64,000 nucleotides of DNA from Endozoicomonas sp. 4G (GTDB lineage Bacteria > Pseudomonadota > Gammaproteobacteria > Pseudomonadales > Endozoicomonadaceae): NCBI RefSeq assembly GCF_023822025.1, contig NZ_CP082909.1, forward strand, positions 1,540,001 to 1,604,000. Reading direction: 5' to 3'. Position 1 is the stretch's first letter, and the number at the start of each line of letters is the position of its first letter. A program made the translations under genes and the position numbers. Shown piece after piece: positions 42,444 through 63,120 of the stretch. Under the pieces are notes generated by a model. The model did no database searches and was not told the DNA's origin. It worked only from the letters and a program-made list of their open reading frames with translations.

Positions 42444-42588
42444 AAAAACACGCATTAATACCTATCCTTCGAAAGAGAATGCTGGCACAATCTTGCTAGT
42501 TTTAGACGAGCAGGAAATGATTGAGGTGAGGGATAAGTTCTGTTCAGCTGTGTGGCAGTTGAGCGGTAGCGTGCCTGTCATATTTTGC
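42444..42588 (+). repeat. Left copy of 145-bp direct repeat bracketing the integron
   Basis: This 145-bp stretch is repeated at 63344-63488, exactly 20,900 bp downstream in the same orientation, without indels and with about 90% identity; the last roughly 50 bp are identical. In the right copy it follows a transposase fragment, so the pair are probably remnants of one insertion-sequence type. This copy abuts the truncated integrase. Confidence 0.85.
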
Positions 42589-42831
42589 TTCATGCCGACC
42601 GTTCAAACGCCACTTCAATTTTTGTGGCCTTCTTGGGCCTGACCAGGTGGCGGACATCTTCCGAAGGTCTATCTGAAACTGTCTGACATGATCAGGCCCC
42701 AAGTCTCGAGGGTGTCTCATGTGTTGATAGCGAATGAAATACTTGATCCAATAGCAATACGACTGTTCAGTTTTATAGCTATAGCGCTTTACTTTCAGGG
42801 TATTGCATACTTTGGTCATAGCTAATATCAC
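42544..42831 (-). pseudogene. intI: Integron integrase IntI, N-terminal stub
   Basis: The first about 55 codons (from about 42831 down to about 42660) encode the SAM-like N-terminal domain of an integron tyrosine recombinase: RYSYKTEQSYCYWIKYFIRY, then HMRHPRDLG, equivalent to the ...YSxxTExxYxxWIxxFIxFHxxxHPxxMG pattern of IntI. Downstream the frame loses similarity and runs into the 145-bp repeat, so the catalytic domain (Arg-His-Arg-Tyr) is gone. Position and orientation, just upstream of and divergent from the first cassette, are exactly those of intI. It cannot catalyse cassette insertion or excision. Confidence 0.85.
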
Positions 42832-42851
42832 TCGTTTGAGGTCTAATAGCT

Positions 42852-42858
42852 GTTAAGC
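42852..42858 (+). other. Candidate attI core site
   Basis: GTTAAGC matches the core-site consensus GTTRRRY in the expected orientation, between the intI stub and the first cassette gene. It is a short motif, so the call rests mainly on position. Confidence 0.4.
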
Positions 42859-42938
42859 GCAAATGTACATTATCGCATATCCGGTATATAATCAGCCGTT
42901 TCTCTAAGTCAAACAGAAATGATGCGTGAGTAGGATGA

Positions 42939-43517
42939 ATGTTCAAGGATAACATCGTAAGAATTCTATACATTGTTGTATCTATAATTCTGGTGGTAGT
43001 TGCATACAAGTACGAAAAGACTATCATCAGCGATGAAAATAACTTTGCAAGATTTTCATATTTTGGAACTGTTATAACAGCCATTGGTTTTATTGTTGCA
43101 GTATGTGAAGTAATGCATTCTGTTCATATTTCAAAGTCTATTCAAGCAACAGCTATGAGTTTACTTGAAAAGGTTAAACTTGTTGAAAGTGCTTCGACAA
43201 TAAGTGATTGCCTGGCTGCTATTGATGAAACAAACAATAATGTAAGCCACGAAGACTATAGAACCGCTTTATGCAGCTTTCAATATTTCCGAAAGTTGTG
43301 TGTGAAAGTATTACCAAATCAGGCAAACGATATAAAAGACTCAGAAAACAGAATTTCAGAATTAATTAATGAGGTCGAAATGGGGTTGTTGAAAGCAAAG
43401 AAAACAACACCAGATGCACCTCTGACAAAGAGACAAAAAACAGATCTTATGAAAAAGATTCTTGACATTAAAGTAGAAGTTGAAAATTTAAATCCAGCGA
43501 TAAGGGTTAAATTATGA
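42939..43517 (+). CDS. First-cassette protein with two membrane helices
   Basis: 192 residues. Two hydrophobic segments near the N-terminus (IVRILYIVVSIILVVVAY and about 45-62, VITAIGFIVAVC) are followed by a helical, probably coiled-coil cytosolic part. No family recognised. The stop overlaps the start of the next gene by four bases (ATGA), so the two are co-translated. It lies first after attI, the position most strongly read from an integron promoter. The small membrane-plus-soluble layout occurs in some defence pairs, but nothing here proves that. Confidence 0.65.
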   Translation: MFKDNIVRILYIVVSIILVVVAYKYEKTIISDENNFARFSYFGTVITAIGFIVAVCEVMHSVHISKSIQATAMSLLEKVKLVESASTISDCLAAIDETNNNVSHEDYRTALCSFQYFRKLCVKVLPNQANDIKDSENRISELINEVEMGLLKAKKTTPDAPLTKRQKTDLMKKILDIKVEVENLNPAIRVKL

Positions 43518-43816
43518 TTCCGACTAAAACCGCTGATTTCCTTAGAAAGCTAAGACAAAAAACGGAGTCAGGTGACATTTCGTGGAGTTACGACGATGAA
43601 AATGCTACTGTGAAAACTGAACTAGCAAAACTTGCTGTCATCATTTCGTACACTTTTGACTCAATCGAAGAAGTTGGTGTTTTTCGTGTACAGATAATAG
43701 ATAAGCCAACAAACCGTGAAGCCCAATTTTCCACTTCGCAAGAGTACGATGACTTTAAGCTCGTAAAAAGCGTCTATGACAGTGCTCAGTCTTCAGATTT
43801 CAACTTCGATTTTTAA
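43514..43816 (+). CDS. Second protein of first cassette, unknown
   Basis: 100 residues, overlapping the upstream gene by ATGA. It has an N-terminal helix (FLRKLRQKTESG), then alternating beta segments (VKTELAKLAVIISYTF, VFRVQIIDKP) and an acidic end. No family recognised. The ISAs1 element begins 4 bp after the stop, so this cassette's own attC has been lost. Confidence 0.6.
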   Translation: MIPTKTADFLRKLRQKTESGDISWSYDDENATVKTELAKLAVIISYTFDSIEEVGVFRVQIIDKPTNREAQFSTSQEYDDFKLVKSVYDSAQSSDFNFDF

Positions 43817-43820
43817 ATGG

Positions 43821-45141
43821 AGGGCTTACGCATGAGAATAATCATTCTCATTTAGATGCGCAAAGCAATAGCTCTGCCGCATCATGAGTTGATCATGGCT
43901 AACACATCTGTGCTTAAAAGCTGTAAAATACCCCGATTTTACGTCTGATGCCTATTAATCCTGAACCGCTAATCATGTTTCTCAACGAGTTGACCGACCC
44001 ACGTAAGCGAGCTTCTTCCTGCGAGCATAACTTTGACGATGTTCTTGTGATTGCTGTGTGTGCCATCATCTGTGGGGCTGATACATGGCAAGATATGCAA
44101 GAGTTCGGTGAAGAAAAAGAAGACTGGTTTCGTTTATTTCTTGAGCTTCCCAATGGTATTCCGTCGCACGACACCTTCTACCGGATTTTTTGCATGCTCA
44201 GACCGGATGAATTTCAGGAATGCTTCACCCGGTGGGTAAAATCTGCTTATCCTGAAGCCCTTGATATACCTGATGGTGATGCTGAAATCATTCCAATTGA
44301 CGGCAAGGTTATCAAGGGTTCCAAGGGAAAAGGCAAGGGTAAAAAAGCAGTCCTCATGGTTAGCGCCTGGAGCACCAGACTGAGTCTGGTCTTAGGGCAA
44401 AAAAAGGTTGATAAAAAGTCGAATGAGATAACCGCTGTCCCTCAACTTCTTGAAGCTATCGACTTGAAAGGCTGCATGATTACAGCCGATGCAATCAGCT
44501 GCCAAAAAAGTATTGCAGAAACCTGCGTAAACCAGGAGGCAGATTATCTTCTTGCTGTTAAAGGAAACCAAAAAACACTGCACAACGATATTCAAACAGC
44601 AGTCGAAGAGCGATGGAATAGCAACCCGGAAGAGCCAGTATCAGATGCATTTTTTGAGCGCAAAAATAAAGGTCATGGTCGTCATGAATATCGCTGCTGC
44701 TGGGTTTTTGATGACGTTTCGGCTCTTTCAACAGCTGATGAATGGACAGGAATAAAGCAGTTTGGTGTCGTTCAGTCTGATCGAACAATTGATGGCAAAG
44801 CCACGATAGCTCTAAGGTACTACATTTCCAGCAAAACCATGACAGCCGAGGGAATGCTCAATGCAACACGCCAGCACTGGGAAGTGGAAAATAGTCTGCA
44901 CTGGATGCTGGACGTTGCCTTTGATGAAGATGCTTGTCAAACCAAAGATGAATGCGCTGCTGAAAATCTGTCTACCTTGCGTTGTATTGCCCTAAATATT
45001 CTGAAGGCCGACGTTACCAGTAAGAGGAGCATCAAGACAAAGCGTAAAAAGGCTGGGTGGAGCAATAGATACCTGTCTCAGCTATTGAAATCATTCATTG
45101 TTGAGGCTAAATGAGAATGATTGTCTTCGTGCGTAAGCCCT
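43821..45141 (+). mobile_element. ISAs1-family insertion sequence, complete
   Basis: About 1321 bp bounded by inverted repeats starting AGGGCTTACGCA on both sides; similarity continues about 34 bp inward (left ...AATCATTCTCATTTAG; right, reversed, the same words). One transposase ORF fills it. The expected 8-10-bp target duplication is absent, and the right flank enters a gene fragment missing its 5' half, so a deletion accompanied or followed insertion. Confidence 0.88.
43948..45114 (+). CDS. ISAs1-family transposase
   Basis: 388 residues, full length. The N-terminal domain of unknown function (LNELTDPRKRASSCEHNFDDVLVIAVCAIICGADTW) and the DDE core with IPIDGKVIKGS (first Asp), MITADAISCQKSIAE (second Asp) and the HWEVENSLHWMLDVAFDEDAC glutamate region are typical of ISAs1/H-repeat transposases. 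No frameshift is visible, so the enzyme may be active. Confidence 0.93.
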   Translation: MPINPEPLIMFLNELTDPRKRASSCEHNFDDVLVIAVCAIICGADTWQDMQEFGEEKEDWFRLFLELPNGIPSHDTFYRIFCMLRPDEFQECFTRWVKSAYPEALDIPDGDAEIIPIDGKVIKGSKGKGKGKKAVLMVSAWSTRLSLVLGQKKVDKKSNEITAVPQLLEAIDLKGCMITADAISCQKSIAETCVNQEADYLLAVKGNQKTLHNDIQTAVEERWNSNPEEPVSDAFFERKNKGHGRHEYRCCWVFDDVSALSTADEWTGIKQFGVVQSDRTIDGKATIALRYYISSKTMTAEGMLNATRQHWEVENSLHWMLDVAFDEDACQTKDECAAENLSTLRCIALNILKADVTSKRSIKTKRKKAGWSNRYLSQLLKSFIVEAK

Positions 45142-45142
45142 G

Positions 45143-45367
45143 GTCACACTGGAGCCTTGTTCGTTTCATGGTCGCACTCCGTCGTGTGCAAAAGCATTGA
45201 TAAAGTCAGGCATCAAATCAGTATATGTTGGCATTATTGGTCCTCACCCAAAGAATAATGGTGCAGGAATCAAAATACTTGAAAACGCAGGAATAAAGGT
45301 ACAATTAGGAGTTCTATCAAACCTTGTGTCTCAAGACCTCAGTAAATATTTAGCATCAGGCACATAA
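45143..45367 (+). pseudogene. Deaminase (RibD-like) fragment cut by ISAs1
   Basis: An open frame directly after the IS right end reads VTLEPCSFHGRTPSCAKAL, the second half of the zinc site (PC-x-x-x-G-x-T-x-x-C) of RibD/dCMP-type deaminases, then VYVGIIGPHPKNNGAGI and ILENAGIKVQLGVL, and stops at 45367. The 5' part with the first zinc motif (HAE) is missing, removed with the IS insertion. The attC that closes the cassette follows immediately. Confidence 0.8.
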
Positions 45368-45434
45368 CAAGTATATGGTGTCGCCCCTAAAGAAGCTGGA
45401 CACCTACGGTGCCGCACATGTAGGCGTTAGGTGC
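45362..45434 (+). other. attC site 1
   Basis: From ACATAACAAG to GCGTTAGGTGC with internal complementarity; it closes the truncated deaminase cassette. Confidence 0.85.
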
Positions 45435-45483
45435 TTAAAATCTTTCACAGTTAATCAGTAATCAAGTTTGAAGTAAGTGGTAA

Positions 45484-45699
45484 ATGAGAGAAAGTCTAAA
45501 AGAAAAGATCATTGAAGTATTTGACAAGAAAATTGCTAGCAAAAGCGAAAATGTAGGGGTATCTTTCTATGCGTTTTTTGCAAATAAAAATGATAACCCT
45601 GAACTGCTCATGGAGGCAGCGGAATGGTGGATAATGACACATAAGCTTGATCACTTTGAAAAAGCAGTAAAAATAAAAGAGATAGTTCAATCCATTTAG
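45484..45699 (+). CDS. Small cassette protein of unknown function
   Basis: 71 residues, mostly helical: REKIIEV-like amphipathic start, then NPELLMEAAEWWIMTHKLDHFEKAVKIKEIVQSI. No recognised family. Lone gene of its cassette, between attC 1 and attC 2. Confidence 0.6.
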   Translation: MRESLKEKIIEVFDKKIASKSENVGVSFYAFFANKNDNPELLMEAAEWWIMTHKLDHFEKAVKIKEIVQSI

Positions 45700-45722
45700 A
45701 AAATAGAGTTTCGTATTAATCA

Positions 45723-45812
45723 GCGCATAACAAGTCGTTCAAATTCATTCCGCAGCTTTGCTACTCCATCGGACGCTCACTGCGTTCGCGCCGTTTAACT
45801 CTGCGTTATGTG
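45723..45812 (+). other. attC site 2
   Basis: From GCGCATAACAAG to GCGTTATGTG; contains a long imperfect palindrome. The GTG at its end is an alternative but unlikely start of the next gene. Confidence 0.85.
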
Positions 45813-45830
45813 AAAAAGAGGGTTCAAACA

Positions 45831-46862
45831 GTGATCCGTATTAAAGAAGAAATTAAAGCTCTTGATAAAAAGGATAAAGAAAAGGTCTTAGTCTATTTTG
45901 CATACCTAATGGATCAATTTATGCCATCTTCTGGTTTTACTGAGCCGCACTACCTGTTTATCGACAATAGCATTCTTCAAGATATAAAGAATAAAAGCAG
46001 TAGCCAGATTAGTTATCTAAGATATTTGTCTACTCTGATTTTTTCAGACTTTTTGTCGAGAAAAAGCAAGCTTGATATAAAGCTAGCAATAACGCCTGCG
46101 ATTTTTTATGAATTTTCCGGAAGAAAATCTCTTGAGAATGAATATAAATACCAAGAGATTTTAGAGAAAGTTCAAGACAGTGTAGATATATTAAACATAG
46201 AAACATATACCATTGGATTTAGTTCATTTAGCGAAATTAATAAGCTTATTGACAAAGTTAAAATCGATGAAGAAATCATAATCTCTAAGATAAGAGATAT
46301 CAAAAATACAGACTGGTCTGTTAGATTACGTTTTGATAATGGCATTAAATTTCCACATGCAGTAGCTAATAAATATTTATCATCTGATCTTCAGCTAAAA
46401 TATTTTGATGATGGATATGTTAGGTGGGTATTATCTACTCTTATCGAGAGGGAAATTATAACAAATAAACATAATGATGAATATGTAAGGAGAAATTTTC
46501 GTCATGATATGATTTTCTTAATAGCAGCCCTAAACAAAATAAAAAAAGGAATTATACAAGGTTTGGGAGACATTGAGTTATTACAATTTTGTGATATTAC
46601 TGGGCAACAATACAGAGAAAATAATAGAACTTGTACTGGAATTACATTCGATGAAAATCTAAGAAATACATTAGCTTTTCGTACAGGAACATTTGCTACT
46701 CATGAGCCATTTAAAGGTGGTGAATCACAAGAAGAAAGAGACAAAAAGATCTTAGAACTTCAGAAAAATATTGAGAAGCAAAACCAAATTCATCAGAAAG
46801 AAGATATGGTCATGCAAAGAGCTTTAGAATATTACAGAGAGTTAAGTGCAATTTTCACATAA
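45831..46862 (+). CDS. Cassette protein of unknown function, 343 residues
   Basis: Begins at a GTG with AAAGAGGG eight bases upstream; the frame stays open to a GTG inside the attC at 45810. The sequence is Lys/Ile-rich and helical. A short motif HYLFIDNSILQDI near residue 40, with an Asp after a beta strand, and a later NTLAFRTGTF recall PIN-like nucleases, but the full acidic set is not evident. The C-terminus is a coiled coil (KKILELQKNIEKQNQIHQKE). Function unknown; the AT-rich composition differs from the core genes. Confidence 0.6.
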   Translation: MIRIKEEIKALDKKDKEKVLVYFAYLMDQFMPSSGFTEPHYLFIDNSILQDIKNKSSSQISYLRYLSTLIFSDFLSRKSKLDIKLAITPAIFYEFSGRKSLENEYKYQEILEKVQDSVDILNIETYTIGFSSFSEINKLIDKVKIDEEIIISKIRDIKNTDWSVRLRFDNGIKFPHAVANKYLSSDLQLKYFDDGYVRWVLSTLIEREIITNKHNDEYVRRNFRHDMIFLIAALNKIKKGIIQGLGDIELLQFCDITGQQYRENNRTCTGITFDENLRNTLAFRTGTFATHEPFKGGESQEERDKKILELQKNIEKQNQIHQKEDMVMQRALEYYRELSAIFT

Positions 46863-46944
46863 CAAATGCTTCCAGTTCGTTCCGGGGCTTCGCCCCTCTA
46901 CCCGACGCCGCTGTCGGCGGCGCGGCTGAAGCAGGCGTTATGTG
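46856..46944 (+). other. attC site 3
   Basis: From CACATAACAAATGC to GCGTTATGTGG with a GGGGCTTCGCCCC stem-loop and a CCGACGCCGC arm. Same type as the sites at 56521 and 63060. Confidence 0.9.
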
Positions 46945-46977
46945 GCACAAATCAACAATTGAGTAAAACGAGAAAAT

Positions 46978-47682
46978 ATGAAAACTATTGGTCTGCTTGG
47001 AGGAATGAGTTGGGAATCTACCGTAAGCTATTACAAAGCAATAAATGAAGGTGTCAAAGAAGTACTTGGTGGCTTGCATTCAGCCAAAATCTGCCTCTAT
47101 AGTGTTGACTTTGATGAAATAGAAAAGCTGCAACATTCCGGTTGCTGGGAAGAGACAGGAAAAATTCTTTCTCAAGCCGCGCAATCAGTTGAAGCGGGTG
47201 GGGCTGATTTTATTCTCATCTGTACAAATACAATGCACAAGGTCTCAGAGGAAGTTCAATCTTCTATTTCAGTACCACTTGTTCATATTGCAGACGCAAC
47301 CGCAGAAAAACTTGTTACTGATGGAATAAAGCGGGTTGGTTTGCTTGGTACAAAGTTCACAATGGAGCAAGGATTTTACAAAAATCGGGTTTCAGAAAAA
47401 TATGGTATAGAGGTTATTGTTCCAAACGATCAGGATCAAGATATTATTCATAAAGTAATTTACAATGAGCTGTGCCTTGGTGAAATAAATGATGAATCGA
47501 GAGAAAAGTATCTGGAAATCATCAGCAACTTATATTCGAAAGGTGCTGATGCGGTAATTCTAGGTTGTACAGAAATCGCATTGCTTGTTGAGCAGCAGCA
47601 TACAAGTATCCCGCTATACGACACAACAAAAATTCATGCAGCACAAGCTGTGAAGTTGGCAATCAGTCAAAGCGCCACATAA
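46978..47682 (+). CDS. Aspartate/glutamate racemase family protein
   Basis: 234 residues, full length. Start KTIGLLGGMSWESTVSYY and the two catalytic-cysteine regions ICTNTMHKV and VILGCTEIALL are those of the YgeA/aspartate racemase family, PLP-independent enzymes that interconvert L- and D-amino acids. A cassette gene with ATG right after AAAACGAGAAAAT. Preferred substrate (Asp or Glu) is not decided by the sequence. Confidence 0.92.
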   Translation: MKTIGLLGGMSWESTVSYYKAINEGVKEVLGGLHSAKICLYSVDFDEIEKLQHSGCWEETGKILSQAAQSVEAGGADFILICTNTMHKVSEEVQSSISVPLVHIADATAEKLVTDGIKRVGLLGTKFTMEQGFYKNRVSEKYGIEVIVPNDQDQDIIHKVIYNELCLGEINDESREKYLEIISNLYSKGADAVILGCTEIALLVEQQHTSIPLYDTTKIHAAQAVKLAISQSAT

Positions 47683-47757
47683 CAAGTGCGTGGTGTCGGC
47701 AGCAAGCTGCCTGGGACGCCGCCTGCGGCGGCGCCCCACACGCAGGCGTTAGGCGCT
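47674..47757 (+). other. attC site 4
   Basis: From GCCACATAACAAGTGCGTGG to GCAGGCGTTAGGCGC, with GCAGCAAGCTGC and CGCCGCCTGCGGCGG stems. Confidence 0.9.
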
Positions 47758-48048
47758 AAAGTGAATATCAACATCCATGCTCTTGTGTAGGAGTCTGATG
47801 ATATTTATCTGATTTTTATCGTTCTGCTTGTAGAAAATAATGTGACTTCCCTGAGGGAATTTCCGATAGCCTTTTCTGATTTCGTCACATGACTTTCCAA
47901 TGGAAGGGCGTTCAGCCAAAAAAAAGAAAGCTTGATCAAACTCCTTGAGATAAAGATTTCGTTTTTCTCTACCCCAGCGTTTCATAGTAAATTTTGCAAT
48001 CTCTTTTAAATCAGCCTTAGCTTTCTGGGTTAGAATAAAAGGCTTCAT
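47749..48048 (-). CDS. ParE-family toxin
   Basis: 99 residues with the RelE/ParE fold pattern: ILTQKAKADLKEIAKFTMKRWG at the start, LAERPSIGKSCDEIRKGYRKFPQGSHIIFYK in the middle and IIRLLHKSMDVDIHF at the end. ParE toxins poison DNA gyrase. The gene overlaps the upstream antitoxin by four bases and is oriented against the array, so the pair needs its own promoter, the usual state of integron toxin-antitoxin cassettes. Confidence 0.92.
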   Translation of the reverse strand: MKPFILTQKAKADLKEIAKFTMKRWGREKRNLYLKEFDQAFFFLAERPSIGKSCDEIRKGYRKFPQGSHIIFYKQNDKNQINIIRLLHKSMDVDIHFSA

Positions 48049-48287
48049 TTGTTAGTTTCATCGTCAAGTTCATTAATGAAAGTGTCATAGTCATATTCAG
48101 CCATGCCGCTTTCTTCGCCTTCAATGAGCAGGTTACGCAGAGTATTAATTTTGGTTTCCTTGCTTTCCAAAAGTCGCAGAGCAGCACGAATAACTTCGCT
48201 AGCAGATCCGTAGCGGCCACTTTTAACCTGGTTGGAAATGAACCAATCAAAGTGTTCGCCTAAGGTAATGCTTGTATTTTTACCCAT
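48045..48287 (-). CDS. ParD-family antitoxin
   Basis: 80 residues from the ATG at 48287, preceded by AGGTGA. The ribbon-helix-helix start (KNTSITLGEHFDWFISNQVKSGRYGSASEVIRAALRLLE) is typical ParD; the acidic tail binds the toxin. It neutralises ParE and represses its own operon. It is first in the minus-strand pair. Confidence 0.92.
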   Translation of the reverse strand: MGKNTSITLGEHFDWFISNQVKSGRYGSASEVIRAALRLLESKETKINTLRNLLIEGEESGMAEYDYDTFINELDDETNK

Positions 48288-48366
48288 GTCAGTCACCTAT
48301 TTTTTATCCTGTACCAATATATACCTGATTATGGTATAAATGGTTTATAAGTCAAGCTTTGAGTAT

Positions 48367-48450
48367 GCGCCTAACAAGTGCGTGGTGTCGCCAGCAAGCT
48401 GGCTGGGACTGCCGCTTGCAGCGTCAGCCCCACACGCAGGCGTTATAACA
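48367..48450 (+). other. attC site 5
   Basis: From GCGCCTAACAAGTGCG to CAGGCGTTATAACA; close relative of site 4 (AGCAAGCTGGCT stem). Confidence 0.9.
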
Positions 48451-48484
48451 CTCAATCAAGTTATGGAGTAAACGGAGTTTTGAG

Positions 48485-48907
48485 ATGAGTGATTACTGGA
48501 ACGTAATGGTTCCTTAACTCACAGTTACCAATTTTCAGAAGTCTCTGGATTTCTATACCAAGATAATTGGATTCAAAGTTCGTAACAAAAGAGAGAATCC
48601 AGATTTTGCTTATCTGGAATTAGAGAAAGTTCAAATAATGATCGAACAGTTCCATGAGAGTGATTGGCATGTTGGGGAGCTTTCTCGTCCACTTGGTCGA
48701 GGTGTAAATTTCCAAATGGAGCTTTCAGATATTCAGCCAATTCTTGAGCGTCTACAAAATCTCCAAATACAACTATATCGTGACCTCAAGGAATCATGGT
48801 ATGACGTTGGTTCATCGTTATCTGGCCAAAAAGAATTCTTAGTTCAAGACCCTGATGGCTATATGCTTCGATTTACACAGTATCTTGGTGAAAAGTCTAA
48901 AAAGTAA
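48485..48907 (+). pseudogene. Glyoxalase/bleomycin-resistance-like protein, early TAA stop
   Basis: From the ATG at 48485 the frame reads MSDYWNVMVP-stop-LTVTNFQKSLDFYTKIIGF and then stays open to 48907. The single TAA sits at codon 11, where relatives have a sense codon. The rest is a full glyoxalase/VOC domain (FAYLELEKVQIMIEQ, EFLVQDPDGYMLRF). Translation from an internal start (ATG at 48638) would lose the first third. Probably inactivated by one nonsense change, since no frameshift is needed. Confidence 0.85.
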
Positions 48908-48929
48908 ACGTCAGGTTCAGTGCAAACCG

Positions 48930-48988
48930 TGTTATAACAAGTAAATCCAGGTGACGCCTACGGCGCACCTGATTTATGCGTTAGGGGC
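48930..48988 (+). other. attC site 6
   Basis: Short type: TATAACAAGTAAATCCAGGTG to CACCTGATTTATGCGTTAGGGG; the two arms are near-perfect complements around GACGCCTACGGCG. Confidence 0.85.
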
Positions 48989-49036
48989 TACATCAACATC
49001 AAGCCCATTTCAAACAATCGGAAGTGAGTATATAAA

Positions 49037-49456
49037 ATGTCTGAAACTACACATGGAACAGGAAAATTCCTTTGTGGAAGCGTAAAGCTTTCATGTGAAG
49101 AAATGAGTTTGAATGTGGGTGCCTGTCATTGCAGCACATGTCAAAGCTGGGTTGGTGGTCCACTTCTCTCTGTAGATTGTGGTAGCAATGTAAAAATTGA
49201 AGGTAAAGAAAAGATTTCAATCTATAACTCTTCAGAATGGGCTGAAAGAGCTTTCTGCTCAAACTGTGGAAGTCATCTTTTTTACCGTTTAAAGCATAAC
49301 TACCAGCATATTGTTCCTGTTGGCTTGTTTGGCAAAGAGTACAAGTTCAACTTCGATCATCAAATATTCATTGATGAAAAGCCAGAGTATTATTGTTTTT
49401 CCAACCAAACCAAAAATATGACTGGGGCAGAGTTGTTTGCACAATCTCCGTCATAG
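49037..49456 (+). CDS. GFA family protein (glutathione-dependent formaldehyde-activating type)
   Basis: 139 residues. The zinc-binding pattern of the Mss4-like GFA fold is complete: FLCGSVKLSC, GACHCSTCQSW (Cys30, Cys32, Cys35) and AFCSNCGSHLFYR. Proteins of this fold bind glutathione adducts or act as zinc proteins; the substrate is unknown. Intact cassette gene. Confidence 0.9.
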   Translation: MSETTHGTGKFLCGSVKLSCEEMSLNVGACHCSTCQSWVGGPLLSVDCGSNVKIEGKEKISIYNSSEWAERAFCSNCGSHLFYRLKHNYQHIVPVGLFGKEYKFNFDHQIFIDEKPEYYCFSNQTKNMTGAELFAQSPS

Positions 49457-49468
49457 AATCAAGTAAAC

Positions 49469-49527
49469 GCACCTAACAAAAAAATCCAGATGACGCCTTC
49501 GGAGCACCTGATTTAGTCGTTATGTAC
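49469..49527 (+). other. attC site 7
   Basis: Short type like site 6: CACCTAACAAAAAAATCCAGATG to CACCTGATTTAGTCGTTATG. Confidence 0.85.
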
Positions 49528-56368: not shown

Positions 56369-56666
56369 CGGGGCGGCCTCTCACTGGAATGTTGTGGTAT
56401 CAATAAACATCATACCGGTGTTTGGCCGTCCCCAGTTGTCATGTCAGATAGAATTTGTTGATGCCCTTCATCCCTTGGCCTGCAAGCACTGAAAAAATGG
56501 TCAATATGAGACTTTCACCCAAATGCTTCCAGTTCGTTCCGGGGCTTCGCCCCCTCCACCCGACGCCGCCTGCGGCGGCGCGGCTGAAGCAGGCGTTAGG
56601 TTTCTCTATACCATCTCTTATTGTCTGATATGCTCAACGCACAAGAAATAATCATAGGGTGTACGC

Positions 56667-56933
56667 ATGAACCACGATAGAGACACAGACGATTTCTGGA
56701 ATGCCATCAGTCGCATAGAGGTCAGTGTCAAAAACTCACAGGACGATATTAGGAAGCTGTACCTGCATAGCGCACGGCAGGAAATAGCTATTGAGTCACC
56801 CAATGAAAAGATTGACGCTAACCAGCAAGAGAGTCGGCTCATGTTCGCTCGGATAGAAAAACGTTTTGACGAACACGACAAACGGTTTGATAAAATAGAA
56901 GACTCTCTCACCATTATCGTAAACCACCTTTAG
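56667..56933 (+). CDS. Small coiled-coil cassette protein
   Basis: 88 residues with heptad-like repeats: SRIEVSVKNSQDDIRKLY, IEKRFDEHDKRFDKIEDSLTI. Polar and predicted to be a single coiled coil, as in many cassette-encoded small proteins. No family recognised. Confidence 0.6.
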   Translation: MNHDRDTDDFWNAISRIEVSVKNSQDDIRKLYLHSARQEIAIESPNEKIDANQQESRLMFARIEKRFDEHDKRFDKIEDSLTIIVNHL

Positions 56934-56942
56934 AAATAACCA

Positions 56943-57009
56943 CGCCACCTAACAACACGCTCAACTAGGGCGCACATACTGTGCGTCCGTCAGCTTTGCG
57001 TTATGCGGT
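56943..57009 (+). other. attC site 12
   Basis: From CGCCACCTAACAACACGC to GCTTTGCGTTATGCGG around CGCACATACTGTGCG. Confidence 0.85.
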
Positions 57010-57045
57010 TTCACTCAAAGATCAAAATACAAGAGAGGATGCAGT

Positions 57046-57948
57046 TTGAATATTTTTCTATATGTAACCACAGTTCTAATTTGGGGTAGCACTTGGGTTG
57101 CAATATATTTTCAACTTGGCGACGTTCCAGTTAATGTTTCTGTCTTTTATAGATTTGCTTTAGCGGGAATTCTATTTTTACCAACACTCATTTTTTTGAG
57201 AAAGCTTCAAACAACAAGAATACAAGATCATAAGTTAATGCTATTACAAGGCTGCTGTCTTTTCTCGCTTAATTTTATCTGCTTCTATAATTCAACAATT
57301 TATATTTCAAGTGGGCTGTCTGCTGTTGTTTTCTCACTTGCTACGATTTTCAATGCAATAAATAATAAAATATTTTATAAAGAAGAAGTGCCAGCAAAGG
57401 TAATGATAGCAGCATTTTTAGGTAGTTCAGGGCTACTAATATTATTTTTACCTGAATTGTATAATGAAGAAATTTCGATAGACACGATAAAAGGAATTAT
57501 ATTCGCTATTCTGGGTACATATTTATTTTCACTCGGCAATATGCTTTCAAAGAAAACAACAAGTCTTGGATTGTCACCTATTACAACAAATGCATACGGT
57601 ATGTTTTATGGTGCAATTATCTTATTCATAATTCTGTTAGTAATGAAGCAACCATTAGTTTTCAGTTCAGAGCCAGAGTACATTGCTTCATTAATGTATT
57701 TAAGTATATTTGGTTCAATTGTTGCCTTTACTACTTATTTATCATTAGTAGCTCGCATAGGTGCAAATAATGCTGCATATAGCACAGTTATGTTCCCGGT
57801 TATTGCATTGTTTTTATCAAGCATTTTTGAGGGTTATGAGTGGCACTTAGCCAGCATTATGGGTATTGCTCTTACTGTTTTAGGTAATTTGGTCCTTCAC
57901 ATGAATAAGTCAACATTTTTGCGTGCAAAGCCTGAAAGTACCGCATGA
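57046..57948 (+). CDS. EamA family (DMT) transporter
   Basis: 300 residues with ten hydrophobic helices and EamA repeats (FLYVTTVLIWGSTWVAIYF; GIIFAILGTYLFSLGNML). Likely exports metabolites across the inner membrane; substrate unknown. Translation starts at a TTG with GAGAGGA upstream, an uncommon start for the window. Intact cassette gene, strongly AT-rich. Confidence 0.9.
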   Translation: MNIFLYVTTVLIWGSTWVAIYFQLGDVPVNVSVFYRFALAGILFLPTLIFLRKLQTTRIQDHKLMLLQGCCLFSLNFICFYNSTIYISSGLSAVVFSLATIFNAINNKIFYKEEVPAKVMIAAFLGSSGLLILFLPELYNEEISIDTIKGIIFAILGTYLFSLGNMLSKKTTSLGLSPITTNAYGMFYGAIILFIILLVMKQPLVFSSEPEYIASLMYLSIFGSIVAFTTYLSLVARIGANNAAYSTVMFPVIALFLSSIFEGYEWHLASIMGIALTVLGNLVLHMNKSTFLRAKPESTA

Positions 57949-58028
57949 CAAAAAAATCAAGTTCGTTCCGTTGCTGCGCAGCTCCATCGGACGCGCCTGG
58001 CAGCGCGGCTGAAGCTGGCATTAGGTGC
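57940..58028 (+). other. attC site 13
   Basis: From CCGCATGACAAAAAAATCAAG to GCTGGCATTAGGTGC; the core TAAC is altered to TGAC, so this site may be degenerate. Confidence 0.7.
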
Positions 58029-58071
58029 TTTACCAAATAAATAAAGTAATCAAGAATGGGGGTAATATTTT

Positions 58072-58479
58072 TTGAGCATTTAAGAAGAACTGTACGAAGC
58101 TGCAAAAGACCTAATTGAGAAAAGGTATCCTCAAGGTTGGGGAGGTGCTGCAGCCATTCGAACAATATCAGGAAAAATTATTACAAGTGTTGCTCCTGAC
58201 ACAAAAAATGCCGCTCTTGGACTGTGTATGGAAGTAGGAGCTTTTTTGGAAGATCATAAAATCAATGAAGCGGTAACACATTCTTTATGTATCTTCAGAG
58301 AGAATGAGACTTCGGATTTTATGGTTCTTAGTCCCTGCGGTATTTGTCAGGAGCGCTTGGTCCACTGGGGTGGTAGTGTTCAAGTCGCAATTACCAATAA
58401 AGAAAATAAGTTAATCTTTAAGTCCATTAGAGAGCTTCAACCATTTCATTGGTCTGCAGTAAATGGAGAAGAGCTTTAG
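58072..58479 (+). pseudogene. Cytidine deaminase-like gene, in-frame TAA at codon 4
   Basis: The frame from the TTG at 58072 reads a three-codon start, a TAA (58081-58083), then EELYEAAKDLIEKRYPQGWGGAAAI and on to the end at 58479 without interruption. The zinc site has LCMEVGA in place of the usual CAE, and SPCGICQERL is intact. No good start codon lies between the TAA and the ATG at 58210, which is inside the zinc motif. It is probably inactivated by a single nonsense change. Confidence 0.8.
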
Positions 58480-58491
58480 TCAAAAATCAGC

Positions 58492-58557
58492 AGCGCCCCT
58501 AACAAGTGCGTGGTGTCGGTAGCAAGCTGGCCGGGGCGCCACTTGCAGTCAGGTGCC
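58492..58557 (+). other. attC site 14 (degenerate)
   Basis: GCGCCCCTAACAAGTGCGTGG with AGCAAGCTGGCC stem; the right arm ends CAGTCAGGTGCC, lacking the GTTA core. Confidence 0.7.
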
Positions 58558-58595
58558 AGGATATATCCGACTTTCAAAAATATCTGGTTTTGTAA

Positions 58596-58979
58596 ATGAA
58601 AAATATATCTGATTTTGAGCCACTTATTAAATTAGCTGTATCAAAATTACAAGATGCTGTGCCTTCAAACTATATTTCATATGGTCAAGTCGCTGCTGTT
58701 ATTGAATCAATGAATGGCAATTATTACTCTGGTGTTTGCATTGATACAGCCTGTTCTATGGGCATGTGTGCAGAGAGAAATGCTATTGGGACCATGCTTA
58801 CCGAAGGTGAGTATCAAATAAGAAGGTTAGTCTGCATCAAATCAGATGAAATCATTTTGCCTTGTGGTGGTATGTGTCGTGAATTTCTTATGCAGCTACA
58901 CCATAGCCACAACAAAATTGAAATATTGATAAATCGATCAGGTAACATAGTAACGCTGTCTGAGCTGTTGCCAGCCTGA
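58596..58979 (+). CDS. Cytidine deaminase-like protein
   Basis: 127 residues, the usual length of the homotetrameric CDA type. Zinc motifs are intact: MCAERNA and LPCGGMCREFL. It hydrolyses cytidine-type substrates or related drugs. It follows directly after a second, broken deaminase cassette; the two share a fold but are not close copies. Confidence 0.88.
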   Translation: MKNISDFEPLIKLAVSKLQDAVPSNYISYGQVAAVIESMNGNYYSGVCIDTACSMGMCAERNAIGTMLTEGEYQIRRLVCIKSDEIILPCGGMCREFLMQLHHSHNKIEILINRSGNIVTLSELLPA

Positions 58980-59003
58980 TGGGGGGAACATCAACACACA
59001 GCA

Positions 59004-59072
59004 AGCAAATAACAAGTGCAGTCAAAAAGATGGCGCACTGCGTTCGCCACCCTTTTGTAAGCGTTATACAGC
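59004..59072 (+). other. attC site 15
   Basis: From GCAAATAACAAGTGCAGTC to GTAAGCGTTATACAGC around GCGCACTGCGTTCGC. Confidence 0.85.
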
Positions 59073-59088
59073 TAAACATGGCACAAAG

Positions 59089-59619
59089 ATGATTTCCAAA
59101 TTAATCAAATCAGATAAATTCAGAATACAGGCGTTGCAGTGTGTTCAAAGGTTGGAGTTACCTCAATGCTATATTGCAGCAGGTTTTGTCCGAAACTTAG
59201 TCTGGGATTATCTCCATGGGTTTGATAGTGCAACTGAATTGAATGATATTGATGTTATCTATTTTGATAGCAATGAGCGTGATCAAAATAAGTACATCGA
59301 GTATGAGTCAGCCCTGAAAAAAAATATGCCCAATTTAAACTGGCAAGTTCGCAACCAAGCTATAATGCACATCCGAAATAATGACAAACCATATAAAAAC
59401 TCATTGGACGCAATGTCATTCTGGCCTGAAAAGGAAACAGCTGTAGCAGTTCGACTACTTAAAAATGGGGAGCTAGAATGCATTTCAGCTTTTGGTACCG
59501 ATTCTTTATTCAGTTTAAAGGTCACTCATAACCCAAAACGTGCAAGGTCGGTCTTTAACCAAAGAGTTACAAGTAAAGGCTGGTTAGGGCAATGGCCAAA
59601 ACTGAGAATCGCGGCATAA
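59089..59619 (+). CDS. Nucleotidyltransferase family protein (NTP_transf_6 type)
   Basis: 176 residues. YIAAGFVRNLVWDYLHGF and ELNDIDVIYFD give the active-site helix and D-x-D motif of the YitH/DUF925 nucleotidyltransferases; FNQRVTSKGWLGQWPKL ends the protein. Substrate unknown. Complete cassette gene. Confidence 0.88.
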   Translation: MISKLIKSDKFRIQALQCVQRLELPQCYIAAGFVRNLVWDYLHGFDSATELNDIDVIYFDSNERDQNKYIEYESALKKNMPNLNWQVRNQAIMHIRNNDKPYKNSLDAMSFWPEKETAVAVRLLKNGELECISAFGTDSLFSLKVTHNPKRARSVFNQRVTSKGWLGQWPKLRIAA

Positions 59620-59678
59620 CAAGTGTGTGGTGTCGCCAGCAAGGCTGGCTGGGACTCCGCCTGCACATGCGTTATGTA
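59611..59678 (+). other. attC site 16
   Basis: From GCGGCATAACAAGTGTGTGG to CACATGCGTTATGTATT with AGCAAGGCTGGCT stem. Confidence 0.88.
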
Positions 59679-59699
59679 TTTTAAACATTCGAGGAACAT

Positions 59700-60201
59700 A
59701 TGGAAATTAAAGTTAGACGCTCTGAAGCCTCTGATGCAAAAAAGATTAAAGAAATTTATGAGTGTACCAATGCTTATAGCAATACGCTTCAGTTACCTGA
59801 CCCATCATTAGAACTATGGGAAAAACGAATTTCAACTATACCGGATAATATTTACTCATATGTAGCAATTCTTAATGGTGAAATAGTTGGTAATATTGGG
59901 TTTGAGGTTTGTGTTAACCCCCGAAGAAGGCATGTTGCTTCTTTCGGTATGGGAGTAAAAGATGAGTATTTAGGGTTAGGTGTTGGTAGTAAACTACTTT
60001 CAACTGTTATAGATCATAGATCTTGCTGATAATTGGTTAAACTTATCGCGTTTGGAGTTAACTGTTTATATTGATAATCAAGCGGCAATTGGTTTATATA
60101 AAAAATTTGGCTTTGTCATTGAAGGGGAGTCAGTAATGTACGCATTTCGTAATGGAGAGTATGTTTCTGCTTACCATATGGCACGACTAAAAAATACATA
60201 G
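59700..60201 (+). pseudogene. GNAT acetyltransferase broken by a 7-bp tandem duplication
   Basis: Frame 1 (59700-60029) carries the GNAT N-half with the acetyl-CoA loop GMGVKDEYLGLGVGSKLL and stops at TGA. Just before the stop the sequence ATAGATC is duplicated in tandem. Without one copy the frame continues DLADNWLNLSRLELTVYIDNQ and AIGLYKKFGFVIEGES to the stop at 60201, a complete GNAT. The lesion is therefore a recent slippage event and reversible in principle. Confidence 0.88.
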
Positions 60202-60258
60202 CAAGAGCATTTGGCGGACGGCGCTAGACGCGCCGCTGCTTATGCAAACGTTAGCTGC
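60193..60258 (+). other. attC site 17
   Basis: From ATACATAGCAAGAGC to CAAACGTTAGCTGC around GGACGGCGCTAGACGCGCCG; left core altered (TAGCAA). Confidence 0.75.
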
Positions 60259-60280
60259 TACATATATTTGAGAGTTCAGT

Positions 60281-60434
60281 ATGTTTATATTTCCAGATTC
60301 AGAAAAGAAACTAAAAGCGAGAATTAGTCGTTATAAATCTTCATTCATTATCAATCAAAGATCTGGAGCCAAGAACAAAGCTTCTCAGTGAGGCTTATTC
60401 TTTATTAAGTACACTACCAGGGCAACGCAGCTAA
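60281..60434 (+). pseudogene. Degenerate cassette ORF
   Basis: Starts FIFPDSEKKLKARISRYKSS after its ATG and ends at TGA after 36 codons; a second frame reads EPRTKLLSEAYSLLSTLPGQ to the end of the cassette. The two look like parts of one small gene joined by a frameshift or deletion. Family unknown. Confidence 0.5.
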
Positions 60435-60490
60435 CAAGTACAGTCAAAGGGACGCTCACTGCATTCGCACCCTTGCTGCAGGCGTTAGCC
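60426..60490 (+). other. attC site 18
   Basis: From GCAGCTAACAAGTACAGTC to GCAGGCGTTAGCCG around GACGCTCACTGCATTCGC. Confidence 0.85.
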
Positions 60491-60492
60491 GT

Positions 60493-61356
60493 CTACTCAG
60501 CTGATGGATCACGCTTTGGAGCTAATGTTATAGTCCAGAAAACTGTAAGTGCTATTGATGCAGTCCAGTTTTGGATGAGTTTGAGGAGCGAGTCATAGCC
60601 TGTGCTTGTGGCACTTTGCTGTGGTAGGTTTGGTGTGTTTAATAAGTCAGGCCAATTTAGTTTGCCATAGGGTGCATATTTTTTTCCAGGTCCGAATATC
60701 AAAAAATTTTCTAATGCTGTAACACAGTTCTCGGCACCAGGCTTATACTCAGCCATCGCCACATGCATTCCCATGTTGAGATAATCTTGTTTTTCTTGAT
60801 CGTTTTCGGAAATAGCTAACATTTCAACAGAATTATCCAGGTCATGTTCGGCAGCATATTCTCTCAGTGCAAATCCTGCAGAGCGAAGCGTATTGCCTGT
60901 TTCTGCAACATCAATAACTAACCATTTTTTTTGGAACCCTGAGTTTATTCGAAGATAGCTATCAAAATGTCTAAACAACTTTGCCCGACTATCATCGGAA
61001 GGAAATTCAGGAATTCCTATATTATCAAAACCAATAGGCTTGCAAAGCTTAAAGTTTGAAAGCGGAATCTGAACAGTGTCCTTTGCTTGTGTTTTCACTT
61101 GTAACCAGGCAATTACGGGTGCAGGGCTTCGACCAATCCCTATATATAAGTACTGATCAGGAGGGAATAAATAAATAATTTCTTGGGCAATCTGTTTAAG
61201 TTCTGCAAAGGTACAGTCATCTGGAGTTTCCTCTAAATCAAGTGCAGCAGCGTTTTGTTTGAAGGGAGGATCCATTGCAAAACATAACAAGTGAAGTTCA
61301 GATAGAATGCATTGAAGCAGAATCGTTAATATCACTAAAGTTTTGGTTTTCATCAT
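60493..61356 (-). CDS. Secreted or membrane PRTase-like protein in reverse cassette
   Basis: 287 residues. N-terminal hydrophobic signal or anchor (about 5-27, LVILTILLQCILSELHLLCF) and a C-terminal hydrophobic stretch (about 262-278). In between, YLYIGIGRSPAPVIAWL (about 70-85) and WLVIDVAETGNTLRSAG (about 145-161) match the two main loops of type I phosphoribosyltransferase folds, including the V-x-D-x-x-x-T-G-x-T PRPP-loop pattern with Asp replaced partly by Glu. Function unknown; an extracytoplasmic location would be odd for a PRPP enzyme. It opposes the array direction, so it needs its own promoter. Confidence 0.65.
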   Translation of the reverse strand: MMKTKTLVILTILLQCILSELHLLCFAMDPPFKQNAAALDLEETPDDCTFAELKQIAQEIIYLFPPDQYLYIGIGRSPAPVIAWLQVKTQAKDTVQIPLSNFKLCKPIGFDNIGIPEFPSDDSRAKLFRHFDSYLRINSGFQKKWLVIDVAETGNTLRSAGFALREYAAEHDLDNSVEMLAISENDQEKQDYLNMGMHVAMAEYKPGAENCVTALENFLIFGPGKKYAPYGKLNWPDLLNTPNLPQQSATSTGYDSLLKLIQNWTASIALTVFWTITLAPKRDPSAE

Positions 61357-61407
61357 ATTCCCAATATGTTACATAGCCGAGAGAACGTACTCACAAGATA
61401 GTCCAAA

Positions 61408-61465
61408 TGGCTAACAAGTGGTTCCAGCAGACGGATCCGGCTGCTGGAACCACAGGGTTATGTTG
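61408..61465 (+). other. attC site 19
   Basis: Short type with perfect arms: GTGGTTCCAGCAG ... CTGCTGGAACCAC, opening GGCTAACAAG and closing GGGTTATGTTGC. Confidence 0.88.
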
Positions 61466-61579
61466 CAGCGGGCAAGTTCATCACAAATCTAAGGGAACTA
61501 TTTCTTGCAAGAGTTATCAATTATGAGAAGGCATGGGTCGTTCACTGTTTTGTCAGGTCAAGGGGCAATAGTTCAAAAA

Positions 61580-61726
61580 ATGACAAGACCAACATTTTCT
61601 GATTTCAAGAAAAAAGCTCTCAAAAACCCAAAAGTGAGAGCAGAGTACGAGGAGCTTGAGCTTGCGTATGAATTACGTGAGCAGCTTTTCGCCCCTCCAC
61701 CCTCATACAAACCAATAAGTATGTAA
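61580..61726 (+). pseudogene. HigA-like antitoxin, N-terminal fragment
   Basis: TRPTFSDFKKKALKNPKVRAE and YEELELAYELREQL match the N-terminus of XRE/HigA-type antitoxins that precedes the helix-turn-helix; after 48 codons the sequence diverges and stops, so the DNA-binding domain is missing. A short in-frame stretch before it (from 61505) may be a toxin 3' end. Remnant of a toxin-antitoxin cassette. Confidence 0.65.
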
Positions 61727-61743
61727 AATAGGGAATTATAAGA

Positions 61744-62358
61744 ATGGAGTTTGCTTTAGCTGTTTTACTGTTTGCAGTCTCAACAACTGTGACCCCAGGA
61801 CCAAATAACGTAATGATAATGACATCTGGAATGAATCATGGAATTAAAAAGAGTTTACCTCATTTTATGGGGATTTGTTTTGGATTCCCTGCAATGGTTG
61901 TTGCAGTTGGTTTAGGGTTTGGAGTTATCTTTGAAAAATATCCAGTGCTACATGAAATTATAAAAGTCATTGGTGTTCTCTATCTTTTATATTTGGCTTA
62001 TCTCATTGCGATCTCCTCACAAAGCTCACTTGAAAGCAATAAATCAAAGCCTTTAACTTTTTTGCAAGCCGCTATTTTTCAGTGGGCTAATCCTAAGGCA
62101 TGGATAATGGCAACAGGTGCAATAGCCGCATATACAACATTAAATTCCAATGTTTATGTTCAGATTTTATTTATTGCACTATCATTTTTCGTTGTTGCAT
62201 TCCCAGCAGTAGGTGTTTGGCTTGTCTTCGGTGCAAACTTAAAAAAGATACTCAAAAAAGCAGAACATCAACATAAATTTAATGTCTCAATGGCTTTGTT
62301 GCTTGTAATATCAGTAGTACCAATAATATACGAGTTGGTAACAGGCATCGTAACCTGA
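61744..62358 (+). CDS. LysE family translocator
   Basis: 204 residues with five to six membrane helices and the family start TPGPNNVMIMTSGMNHG. Middle segments FQWANPKAWIMATG are typical of RhtB/LysE exporters of amino acids or their derivatives. Intact cassette gene; substrate unknown. Confidence 0.92.
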   Translation: MEFALAVLLFAVSTTVTPGPNNVMIMTSGMNHGIKKSLPHFMGICFGFPAMVVAVGLGFGVIFEKYPVLHEIIKVIGVLYLLYLAYLIAISSQSSLESNKSKPLTFLQAAIFQWANPKAWIMATGAIAAYTTLNSNVYVQILFIALSFFVVAFPAVGVWLVFGANLKKILKKAEHQHKFNVSMALLLVISVVPIIYELVTGIVT

Positions 62359-62430
62359 CAAGTGGTTCCAGTACGTTCGCTATGCTCAACCGACCACCTC
62401 CGGCGGCGGCTGAACCAGGCGTTATGTGGC
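62349..62430 (+). other. attC site 20
   Basis: From GTAACCTGACAAGTGGTTCCAG to CTGAACCAGGCGTTATGTGG; arms complementary (GGTTCCAG/CTGAACC). Confidence 0.85.
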
Positions 62431-62474
62431 TAATACAAACCCCATGCAAAGGAGCCATAGATTGTATCAATATC

Positions 62475-62642
62475 ATGAAAGTGATTTTCAGACAAAAAGA
62501 AATTACCATTGTCTACAGCAATGAATTTCTTGGCGATGAGAAGCATGTCTGGAATATGATAATAGAGCGCACAGCAAGAGAGTCAGACCTTGAAGAAAAT
62601 CACTACCTTGAACAAATATACAATCTGGCAAACTGCCTCTGA
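62475..62642 (+). CDS. Small cassette protein of unknown function
   Basis: 55 residues: VIFRQKEITIVYSNEFLG, then an acidic helix EENHYLEQIYNLANCL. Shortly follows attC 20. No family recognised; small, so moderate confidence that it is real. Confidence 0.45.
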   Translation: MKVIFRQKEITIVYSNEFLGDEKHVWNMIIERTARESDLEENHYLEQIYNLANCL

Positions 62643-62753
62643 AATAAACTGCTGTGCTTTTTGTGGTGAATCCTTATCAAGTTCCAAAGAGCAGGCTAAC
62701 TTAGCAAATATGGTTCACTATGACAATTGTCATAGCAGGTGTGGTGGCAAATT

Positions 62754-63038
62754 ATGAAAGCTCAAAAAAAGCCTCTTTCTAAAAAAATCAAGAAACTGCG
62801 ACGTGAGAGAAAGATTGAGCAGAGAAAAAAATACGAATTTATTTTCATTAATGGAAAGCAGGTTAAAGTAAAGAAGGATCCAGAAATTGATGGAATACCG
62901 GTTGATGATTTCATTAAAAGAAATGCTGATCCTATATGGCTGCACCAGAATGAGTTATGGCACTTGATTGAGACAAAACAAGATGTCACAGCAGAAACTC
63001 AAAAATATGATGAAGATGAATCCGAAATCCCATTTTAA
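62754..63038 (+). CDS. Small basic-N-terminus cassette protein
   Basis: 94 residues from the ATG at 62754 (GGTGG upstream). Highly basic start (KKPLSKKIKKLRRERKIEQRKK), then a beta segment (FIFINGKQVKVKKDPEIDG) and an acidic tail ending ESEIPF. The basic half suggests nucleic-acid binding, by inference. Last gene before the truncated final attC. Confidence 0.55.
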   Translation: MKAQKKPLSKKIKKLRRERKIEQRKKYEFIFINGKQVKVKKDPEIDGIPVDDFIKRNADPIWLHQNELWHLIETKQDVTAETQKYDEDESEIPF

Positions 63039-63059
63039 ATAATGGTTTCACATCGAGAG

Positions 63060-63120
63060 CGCCATATAACAAATGCTTCCAGTTCGTTCCGTGGCTTTGC
63101 CTCTACACCCGATGCCGCAT
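63060..63120 (+). other. attC site 21, left part only
   Basis: GCCATATAACAAATGCTTCC with the stem start GTGGCTTTGCCTC; similarity to sites 3 and 11 is lost after about 63120, where an IS remnant begins. It marks the right edge of the array in this window. Confidence 0.75.

Follow-up and report, generated by a model that had tools for sequence, protein, structure and literature searches.

A probably inactivated chromosomal integron with a long attC array in an Endozoicomonas genome

The 64,000-nucleotide stretch of Endozoicomonas sp. 4G analyzed here (the window; bases 1,540,001–1,604,000 of a genome that is a single contig of 6,004,453 bases) carries the remains of an integron-integrase gene, intI, that has lost its catalytic half. 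The remnant lies beside what is left of an attI site and is followed by a long array of gene cassettes whose attC sites all face one way. No integron integrase (IntI) over the family cut-off is encoded in this genome, and a related species has an intact ortholog at the same locus. We read the locus as a sedentary chromosomal integron, in its ancestral place, that was recently inactivated, and put the probability of this at roughly 0.88. Cassettes probably no longer move today, and the array appears frozen in the single strain of the species that was examined. Nine other Endozoicomonas genomes, coded G001–G009, were searched beside this one (10 in total); G008 is Endozoicomonas sp. ISHI1.

The integrase gene is reduced to joined pieces

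An open reading frame (ORF) at 42544–42831 on the minus strand matches the integron-integrase profile TIGR02249 (315 positions, family cut-off 265 bits) with an E-value of 7.9e-9, residues 5–56 aligning to profile positions 2–53, and also matches the Pfam family Phage_int_SAM_4 (E 1.5e-13). The remnant matches two NCBIfam families, both of them integron integrases. The TIGR02249 match covers just about 50 residues and falls below the family cut-off, the rest of the protein being gone.

The deletions were mapped against the intact G008 gene with its flanks, in which intI occupies reference positions 301–1257. The window retains positions 54–94 on the attI side, 315–459, 543–631 and, running into the 3' flank, 1250–1529. 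Positions 95–314, 460–542 and 632–1249 are gone, which amounts to three deletions: one between attI and the gene (about 220 bp), a short one within intI (about 83 bp) and one that took the catalytic part (about 618 bp). The codons kept are about 5–53, 81–110 and the last two or three, with no catalytic residue among them; the first catalytic arginine is codon 135 (counted by eye). The first-pass annotation had described an N-terminal IntI stub without the catalytic half. Its IntI identity and the missing half are both borne out, but the remnant is not a simple stub, since it actually consists of joined pieces:

42438–42588, minus strand: native 3' flank of intI, joined directly to the shortened gene (alignment to relatives)
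42588–42680, minus strand: intI remnant piece 2, about codons 81–110 of the G008 gene (77% DNA identity)
42676–42820, minus strand: intI remnant piece 1, about codons 5–53, SAM-like core-binding domain (86% DNA identity)
42815–42858, plus strand: attI remnant with core GTTAAGC at 42852–42858 (read by eye); about 220 bp toward intI deleted

The usual cassette promoter has probably been lost as well, because the deletion took about 220 bp upstream of intI.

The attC sites lie on one strand and continue beyond the window

A covariance model of attC, seeded with 15 hand-picked window sites, picks out 21 places in the window (E ≤ 10). Twenty fall within 45362–63147, every one on the plus strand, and one is a solo site at 21543–21606. 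Seventeen of the 20 score at E ≤ 0.01, namely all 15 seeds plus the non-seed sites 56517–56602 and 60196–60257; the other three, at 58497, 61409 and 63064, are weak. The 20 or so palindromic sites in a single orientation that had been noticed in the sequence are therefore recovered by a covariance model, albeit one built from the window's own seeds, and are backed by a model-free pattern scan and by a covarying stem. The pattern TAACAA-(30–75 bases)-GCGTTA occurs 12 times on the plus strand and never on the minus strand within 42844–63200, compared with one hit per strand in bases 1–42000 and a mean of 0.085 (maximum 2) over 200 Markov-1 controls. In a 21-row alignment that was fitted to the covariance model, and is biased toward it for that reason, 89.2% of stem cells are paired (71.2% in shuffles), 42 cells show double changes (14.9 in shuffles) and the covariation score is 0.476 (0.169 in shuffles). 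None of 500 shuffles reached any of these values, and sliding the pair partners lowered pairing to 25.5–40.6%. Applied to 18 loci of the relatives, the same model gave hits in 14, with 121 in all at E ≤ 0.1, one site that is split between loci L105 and L106 being counted twice. No seed is among these hits, and those beside intI lie on one strand per locus, as read from the table.

The array had been thought to end at 63110, which does not hold. Nine more plus-strand candidates, two of them weak (E 0.63 and 0.67), follow in the adjoining sequences L078 and L079, as far as genome position 1,628,318, and the model found no attC past the last of these in the remainder of L079 or in L080. The whole array amounts to 29 candidates (20 in the window and nine beyond) over about 43 kb. 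The sites in the window, found with the covariance model unless stated otherwise, are:

45362–45433, plus strand: attC 1, a seed; hairpin no better than shuffles
45725–45812, plus strand: attC 2
46857–46944, plus strand: attC 3; strong bottom-strand hairpin, z −4.1
47677–47755, plus strand: attC 4, 82 bits
48369–48449, plus strand: attC 5
48932–48987, plus strand: attC 6
49471–49526, plus strand: attC 7
50082–50167, plus strand: attC 8; hairpin z −4.95
50560–50616, plus strand: attC 9
54880–54909, plus strand: half attC, R' side only (by inspection)
56517–56602, plus strand: attC, non-seed, R'' side altered
56947–57007, plus strand: attC
57943–58027, plus strand: attC
58497–58555, plus strand: degraded attC, R' side lost (E 0.07)
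59007–59070, plus strand: attC
59614–59678, plus strand: attC
60196–60257, plus strand: attC, non-seed, R'' side degraded
60429–60491, plus strand: attC
61409–61464, plus strand: weak attC candidate; long near-perfect hairpin, z −5.9
62353–62428, plus strand: attC
63064–63147, plus strand: degraded attC, the last in the window (E 1.2)

The solo attC-like site at 21543–21606 (plus strand; 24.7 bits, E 0.0019) lies about 21 kb to the left of the integron, and further solo sites of this kind occur at genome positions 3385305 and 3286643.

An intact integrase occupies the same locus in a relative

A search for an intact intI elsewhere in the genome, which the first-pass annotation had proposed, found none over the TIGR02249 cut-off among 13 matches at E ≤ 1. 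The best scored 81 bits against the 265 required; among those whose frame is undamaged, XerC and XerD score highest. Of the 10 genomes of the genus, 7 have IntI matches over the cut-off, which in G006 and G009 are fragments.

The window gene on the left flank of the remnant has its counterpart beside intI in two relatives:

40411–42240, minus strand: left flank genes, function unassigned (ORFs; 41728–42240 compared with relatives)

The product of 41728–42240 shares 81% of its amino acids with that of the intI-adjacent gene in G008 and 83% in G009. G008 has an intact intI at this locus (448.5 bits) with the same 3' flank. In G009, which is the closest relative by xer genes (84% and 86.5% DNA identity among eight relatives compared, G006 left out), intI is split into an N-terminal and a C-terminal part about 1.5 kb apart; by eye, the inserted DNA encodes serine-recombinase-like and TnpB-like proteins, and we take it to be an IS607-like insertion. 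The lesions in the window and in G009 differ, and the integrase was therefore lost independently in two lineages. That both relatives share the neighboring gene and the 3' flank of intI marks a chromosomal, vertically inherited locus. A single locus thus offers a natural series, intact in ISHI1, split by an insertion in G009 and deleted in the window genome, which makes it testable why lineages lose the integrase and what later becomes of the cassettes. In 40 kb of the G009 array, the stretches shared with the window reach at most about 118 bases and include no named cassette gene. Apart from that of the LysE gene described below, cassette matches to the arrays of relatives are weaker: 70% with G004 for the racemase gene and 73% with G001 for the gene at 48465–48940.

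An attI with the first cassette at its core, an IntI remnant, attC sites in tandem on one strand (20 of 20) that keep structure over sequence, and synteny with G008, where the integrase is intact, together give the layout of a sedentary chromosomal integron, as had been suggested. We class the locus as an inactivated integron because no functional integrase remains, the half with the catalytic residues having been deleted. It does not resemble a mobile, class 1-type integron: the contig is chromosomal, the flank is syntenic, and no drug-resistance family was named among the window and array ORFs scanned with Pfam.

The loss looks recent

Compared with G008 across 48 codons, the window remnant shows 2, 3 and 15 differing sites in codon positions 1, 2 and 3, respectively. 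Five codons differ nonsynonymously and 13 synonymously, a ratio indistinguishable from the 25:89 of the intact G008 and G001 genes at full length (Fisher p 0.56). Two older intI remnants in the genome, 89k and 2488k, do depart from 25:89 (14:12, p 0.003, and 10:10, p 0.013, respectively) and look as if they had been relaxed for longer than the window remnant. The LysE cassette and the cassette that comes first in an intact G003 integron agree at 92.6% of 457 bases, and the remainder of the LysE gene matches G003 at 88%, past an interruption in G003; the xerC and xerD genes of the two genomes are 70% and 67% identical. The array probably exchanged its cassettes after the species had separated, and the integrase of the window probably died late. 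Judged from these sequence comparisons, the freeze of the integron looks recent, because of the third-position bias in the remnant and because the cassette (92.6%) is so much more similar than xer (67–70%), although the samples are small.

Evidence against and alternative explanations

Several results weigh against a recently inactivated integron, or against parts of that reading. Over the same 48 codons, the window gives nonsynonymous to synonymous counts of 7:10 with G001 and 8:11 with G009, compared with 2:8, 4:8 and 4:6 for pairs that are intact or once were, and it does not differ significantly from the pooled 89k and 2488k remnants (p 0.099). Double changes occur in all eight inner-stem pairs of attC, but shuffles give 6.3 and 59 of 500 match the count, so this is not exceptional. 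On folding with DNA energies, 9 of the 20 array candidates reach z < −1.5 and 11 do not; the candidate at 61409–61464 may be a plain hairpin rather than attC. The attC scan of the whole genome scored 150 of its 883 candidates. The motif CTGT-N8-ACAG, which we take to be the LexA consensus, is missing from 5 of 13 intI upstream regions (the window, remnant 3608k, G003 613k, G004 and G007), so that its loss from the window proves little alone; it is present in the other eight, among them both G008 loci, G001, G009 and remnants 89k and 2488k, where it lies in the stretch that the window has lost upstream of the gene. SOS control of intI is a known trait (PMC3108266).

The best placed of the alternatives, though unlikely, is that the array stays mobile with the help of a recombinase that works in trans, either an integrase brought in by a plasmid or phage or another of the cell's tyrosine recombinases, such as XerC or XerD. 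The ends of most array candidates are still conserved and their stems paired, and donors exist, since IntI is found over the cut-off in most genomes of the genus. This genome, however, has no such IntI of its own, the candidates at 58497, 60196 and 63064 are degraded and another site is only half present. To our knowledge, use of attC by XerC or XerD is not established.

We consider it less probable still that the remnant has been kept for a function, such as providing a promoter for the first cassettes or encoding a short peptide that binds DNA. The concentration of differences at third positions (15 of 20) would fit this, as would a sigma-70-like site at 42864–42892 on the plus strand. However, intact intI shows the same bias, which a recent loss explains; the promoter scan gave one site compared with 1.1 in shuffles; and the likely place of the cassette promoter is within the deleted upstream sequence. 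Finally, chance palindromes beside a fragment of an unrelated recombinase can be dismissed: the match is short and below the family cut-off, but both NCBIfam hits are integron integrases, an intact IntI is syntenic and the attC controls speak against chance, so that this idea is refuted.

Proposed course of inactivation

IntI recombines double-stranded attI with the folded, single-stranded bottom strand of attC. By analogy, the integrase of this integron would formerly have captured cassettes at attI and excised them through their attC hairpins. The three deletions destroyed intI, taking away its upstream region and all catalytic residues. Capture, shuffling and excision would then have stopped, leaving a passive array that presumably now changes solely through point mutations, deletions and insertion sequences. 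Breakage has already reached some of its cassettes and attC sites, and others are open; cassettes with their own promoters, such as toxin-antitoxin pairs, may stay expressed. Integrase activity costs fitness according to PMC3510236, and PMC12444791 argues for Xanthomonas that losing the integrase fixes a useful set of cassettes; either effect may have favored the loss.

Other platform remnants suggest copying

Pieces of intI also remain at loci 89k, 2488k, 3184k, 3608k and 4309k of the genome, and pieces of the 3' flank lie at window 63344–63488 and at 1875.6k (150 of 1,647 candidates scored with a 3'-flank model), which makes eight platform places with the window's own remnant. No remnant in the genome extends beyond about codon 110 save for the last few codons, and none has the catalytic half. 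The flank piece in the window is the following:

63338–63492, minus strand: another copy of the 3' flank of intI (90% identity to 42444–42588), including no more than the final few codons of the gene

Counted at E ≤ 2, attC candidates outside the window accompany several remnants: seven on the minus strand left of 3608k, six on the plus strand right of 2488k, two on the plus strand at 1875.6k and one on the minus strand left of 4309k. The 1875.6k locus (L089:4185–9733) is collinear with G008 contig C53 (L095:10021–15726) at 83–88% DNA identity over most of 6 kb, and intI is dead in both. The main array and the other loci of this genome have in common attC sites, an ISAs1 copy (97.5%) and short stretches of at most 239 bases, one of which falls in a 67-amino acid ORF preceding the LysE gene; none of the named cassette genes is common to them.

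G003 has two intact platforms (L103 and L104), separated by 1.1 Mb, that share 98.3% identity along 1,740 bp. The identity runs from the core of attI to a point 509 bp beyond intI, whereas the first cassettes and outer sequence differ, and across platform copies homology stops at the GTT core of attI. The G003 platform itself therefore seems to have been copied. In a tree of platform 5' ends, in which two of the five copies from the window genome have fewer than half the columns filled, these five group together (support 85/86, no starred branch), and this tentatively points to lineage-specific multiplication. A broader possibility, which we regard as doubtful, is that the Endozoicomonas platform (attI, intI and about 145–510 bp of 3' flank) is non-sedentary and has multiplied in chromosomes, with a burst of at least eight ends in the window lineage, then the loss of every integrase, leaving relict arrays without a common cassette gene. 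The near-identical G003 platforms and the eight ends suggest it; we rank it low because the tree is weakly supported and old horizontal transfers could explain the copies.

Deletions at the window and 4309k junctions could reflect one shared older event followed by a second deletion. A common 3' deletion end in several remnants was considered as a sign of a recombination hotspot, an idea set aside when other ends were found as well (3184k and G008 C53). The 145-bp repeat (42444–42588 and 63344–63488) was rejected as a mobile element cutting intI, being the native intI 3' flank in relatives. The motif CACGCTACCGC follows the intI stop directly in 11 of 11 aligned copies (nine exact; two near-identical G003 copies with one difference) from all three IntI lineages compared, and lies at 42563–42573 and 63463–63473 in the window. 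It was rejected as integron specific: it is dispersed across Endozoicomonas genomes, with 6–22 copies in nine of the 10 and three in the tenth (0–3 for the reversed control), and 20 of 30 loci examined (L183–L212) lack any IntI match closer than about 1.5 kb.

Comparison with known integrons

Vibrio superintegrons are long arrays that include toxin-antitoxin cassettes. The array described here is similarly long and has such a cassette; unlike them, it has fewer sites, more diverse attC, a dead integrase and insertion sequences within. Dead chromosomal integrons are already known from Xanthomonas, where PMC12444791, reporting an earlier survey by Gillings and colleagues, describes in the passages concerned a conserved locus with intI truncated or absent in most strains and arrays that were dynamic before integrase loss. 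The Endozoicomonas locus shares the conserved platform and the truncated intI; it differs from that account in its genus, in the three deletions within one gene, in seven further dead platform ends and in the intact ortholog in a related species. Pseudogenes of intI are common too: the survey of Nemergut et al. (2008; PMC2426708), in the part that bears on this, counts about one third of intI genes as pseudogenes and finds more than one intI in one fifth of integron-bearing lineages, proposing intragenomic duplication for many, whereas the window genome has no intact intI among the copies found. In the wording of an abstract, CALINs are attC clusters without a neighboring integrase. Of the clusters in this genome, the smaller ones near 3.60 Mb and 1.88 Mb are CALIN-like; the window array has no functional integrase but still adjoins attI and a recognizable intI remnant.

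Integrons had been called little described in Endozoicomonas, which agrees with the literature: our search met no paper that mentions attC together with the genus, and in those of its papers that were read, integrons appeared in reference lists only. New here are the genus, the number of dead platforms and the intact ortholog. The loss is unusually complete. The analysis places chromosomal integrons in a genus of marine symbionts and adds a genome in which each integrase copy found is dead.

Cassettes, insertions and decay

Cassette genes were named by Pfam or NCBIfam profile matches. In array order, the window holds:

42939–43816, plus strand: cassette 1, two ORFs without Pfam match
43821–45141, plus strand: ISAs1-family insertion sequence within cassette 1 (transposase 43948–45114; 35-nt inverted repeats, 89% complementary)
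45484–45699, plus strand: DUF6500 gene
46978–47682, plus strand: Asp/Glu racemase gene
47749–48287, minus strand: ParE/ParD toxin-antitoxin cassette, opposite to the array
48638–48907, plus strand: gene with a premature in-frame stop by comparison with an open copy in the G001 array
49037–49456, plus strand: GFA-family gene
49545–50087, plus strand: DinB-family gene
50188–50565, plus strand: gene without Pfam match
50682–51449, plus strand: AAA ATPase gene; best PADLOC match AbiLi, over the N-terminal two thirds
51780–54885, strand not assigned: segment between 25-nt inverted repeats (IS66-like transposase 53386–54804, minus strand; FlhE-like ORF 52215–52532), right end abutting the half attC
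54986–55582, plus strand: glutathione S-transferase-like gene
57046–57948, plus strand: EamA-family transporter gene
58596–58979, plus strand: cytidine deaminase-like gene
59089–59619, plus strand: NTP_transf_6 nucleotidyltransferase gene
59700–60190, plus strand: GNAT acetyltransferase gene, apparently frameshifted
61744–62358, plus strand: LysE-type translocator gene

Decay is visible in the broken genes at 48638 and in the GNAT cassette, the ISAs1 insertion, the IS66-like segment and the degraded attC sites at 58497, 60196 and 63064. No target duplication was obvious by eye at the ends of 43821–45141 or 51780–54885, which hints at rearrangement. The window has no Rfam match at gathering scores and no tRNA. 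The last bases of the AAA ATPase gene recur at 63516, and a 287-amino acid ORF without Pfam match (60493–61356, minus strand) runs against the array inside a cassette.

Beyond the window, between two attC candidates of the extension (L078:5387–13811; genome 1,609,387–1,617,811), lie genes for a kinase-NERD protein and a helicase matching MkoA (E 1e-103), which we take to belong to the Mokosh defense system, together with a further ORF; this group is a possible defense system inside the array. A cassette gene at L078:16714–17121 encodes a 135-amino acid stand-alone SAM-like integrase N-terminal domain (weak matches, E 4e-5 and 1e-4) without a catalytic domain.

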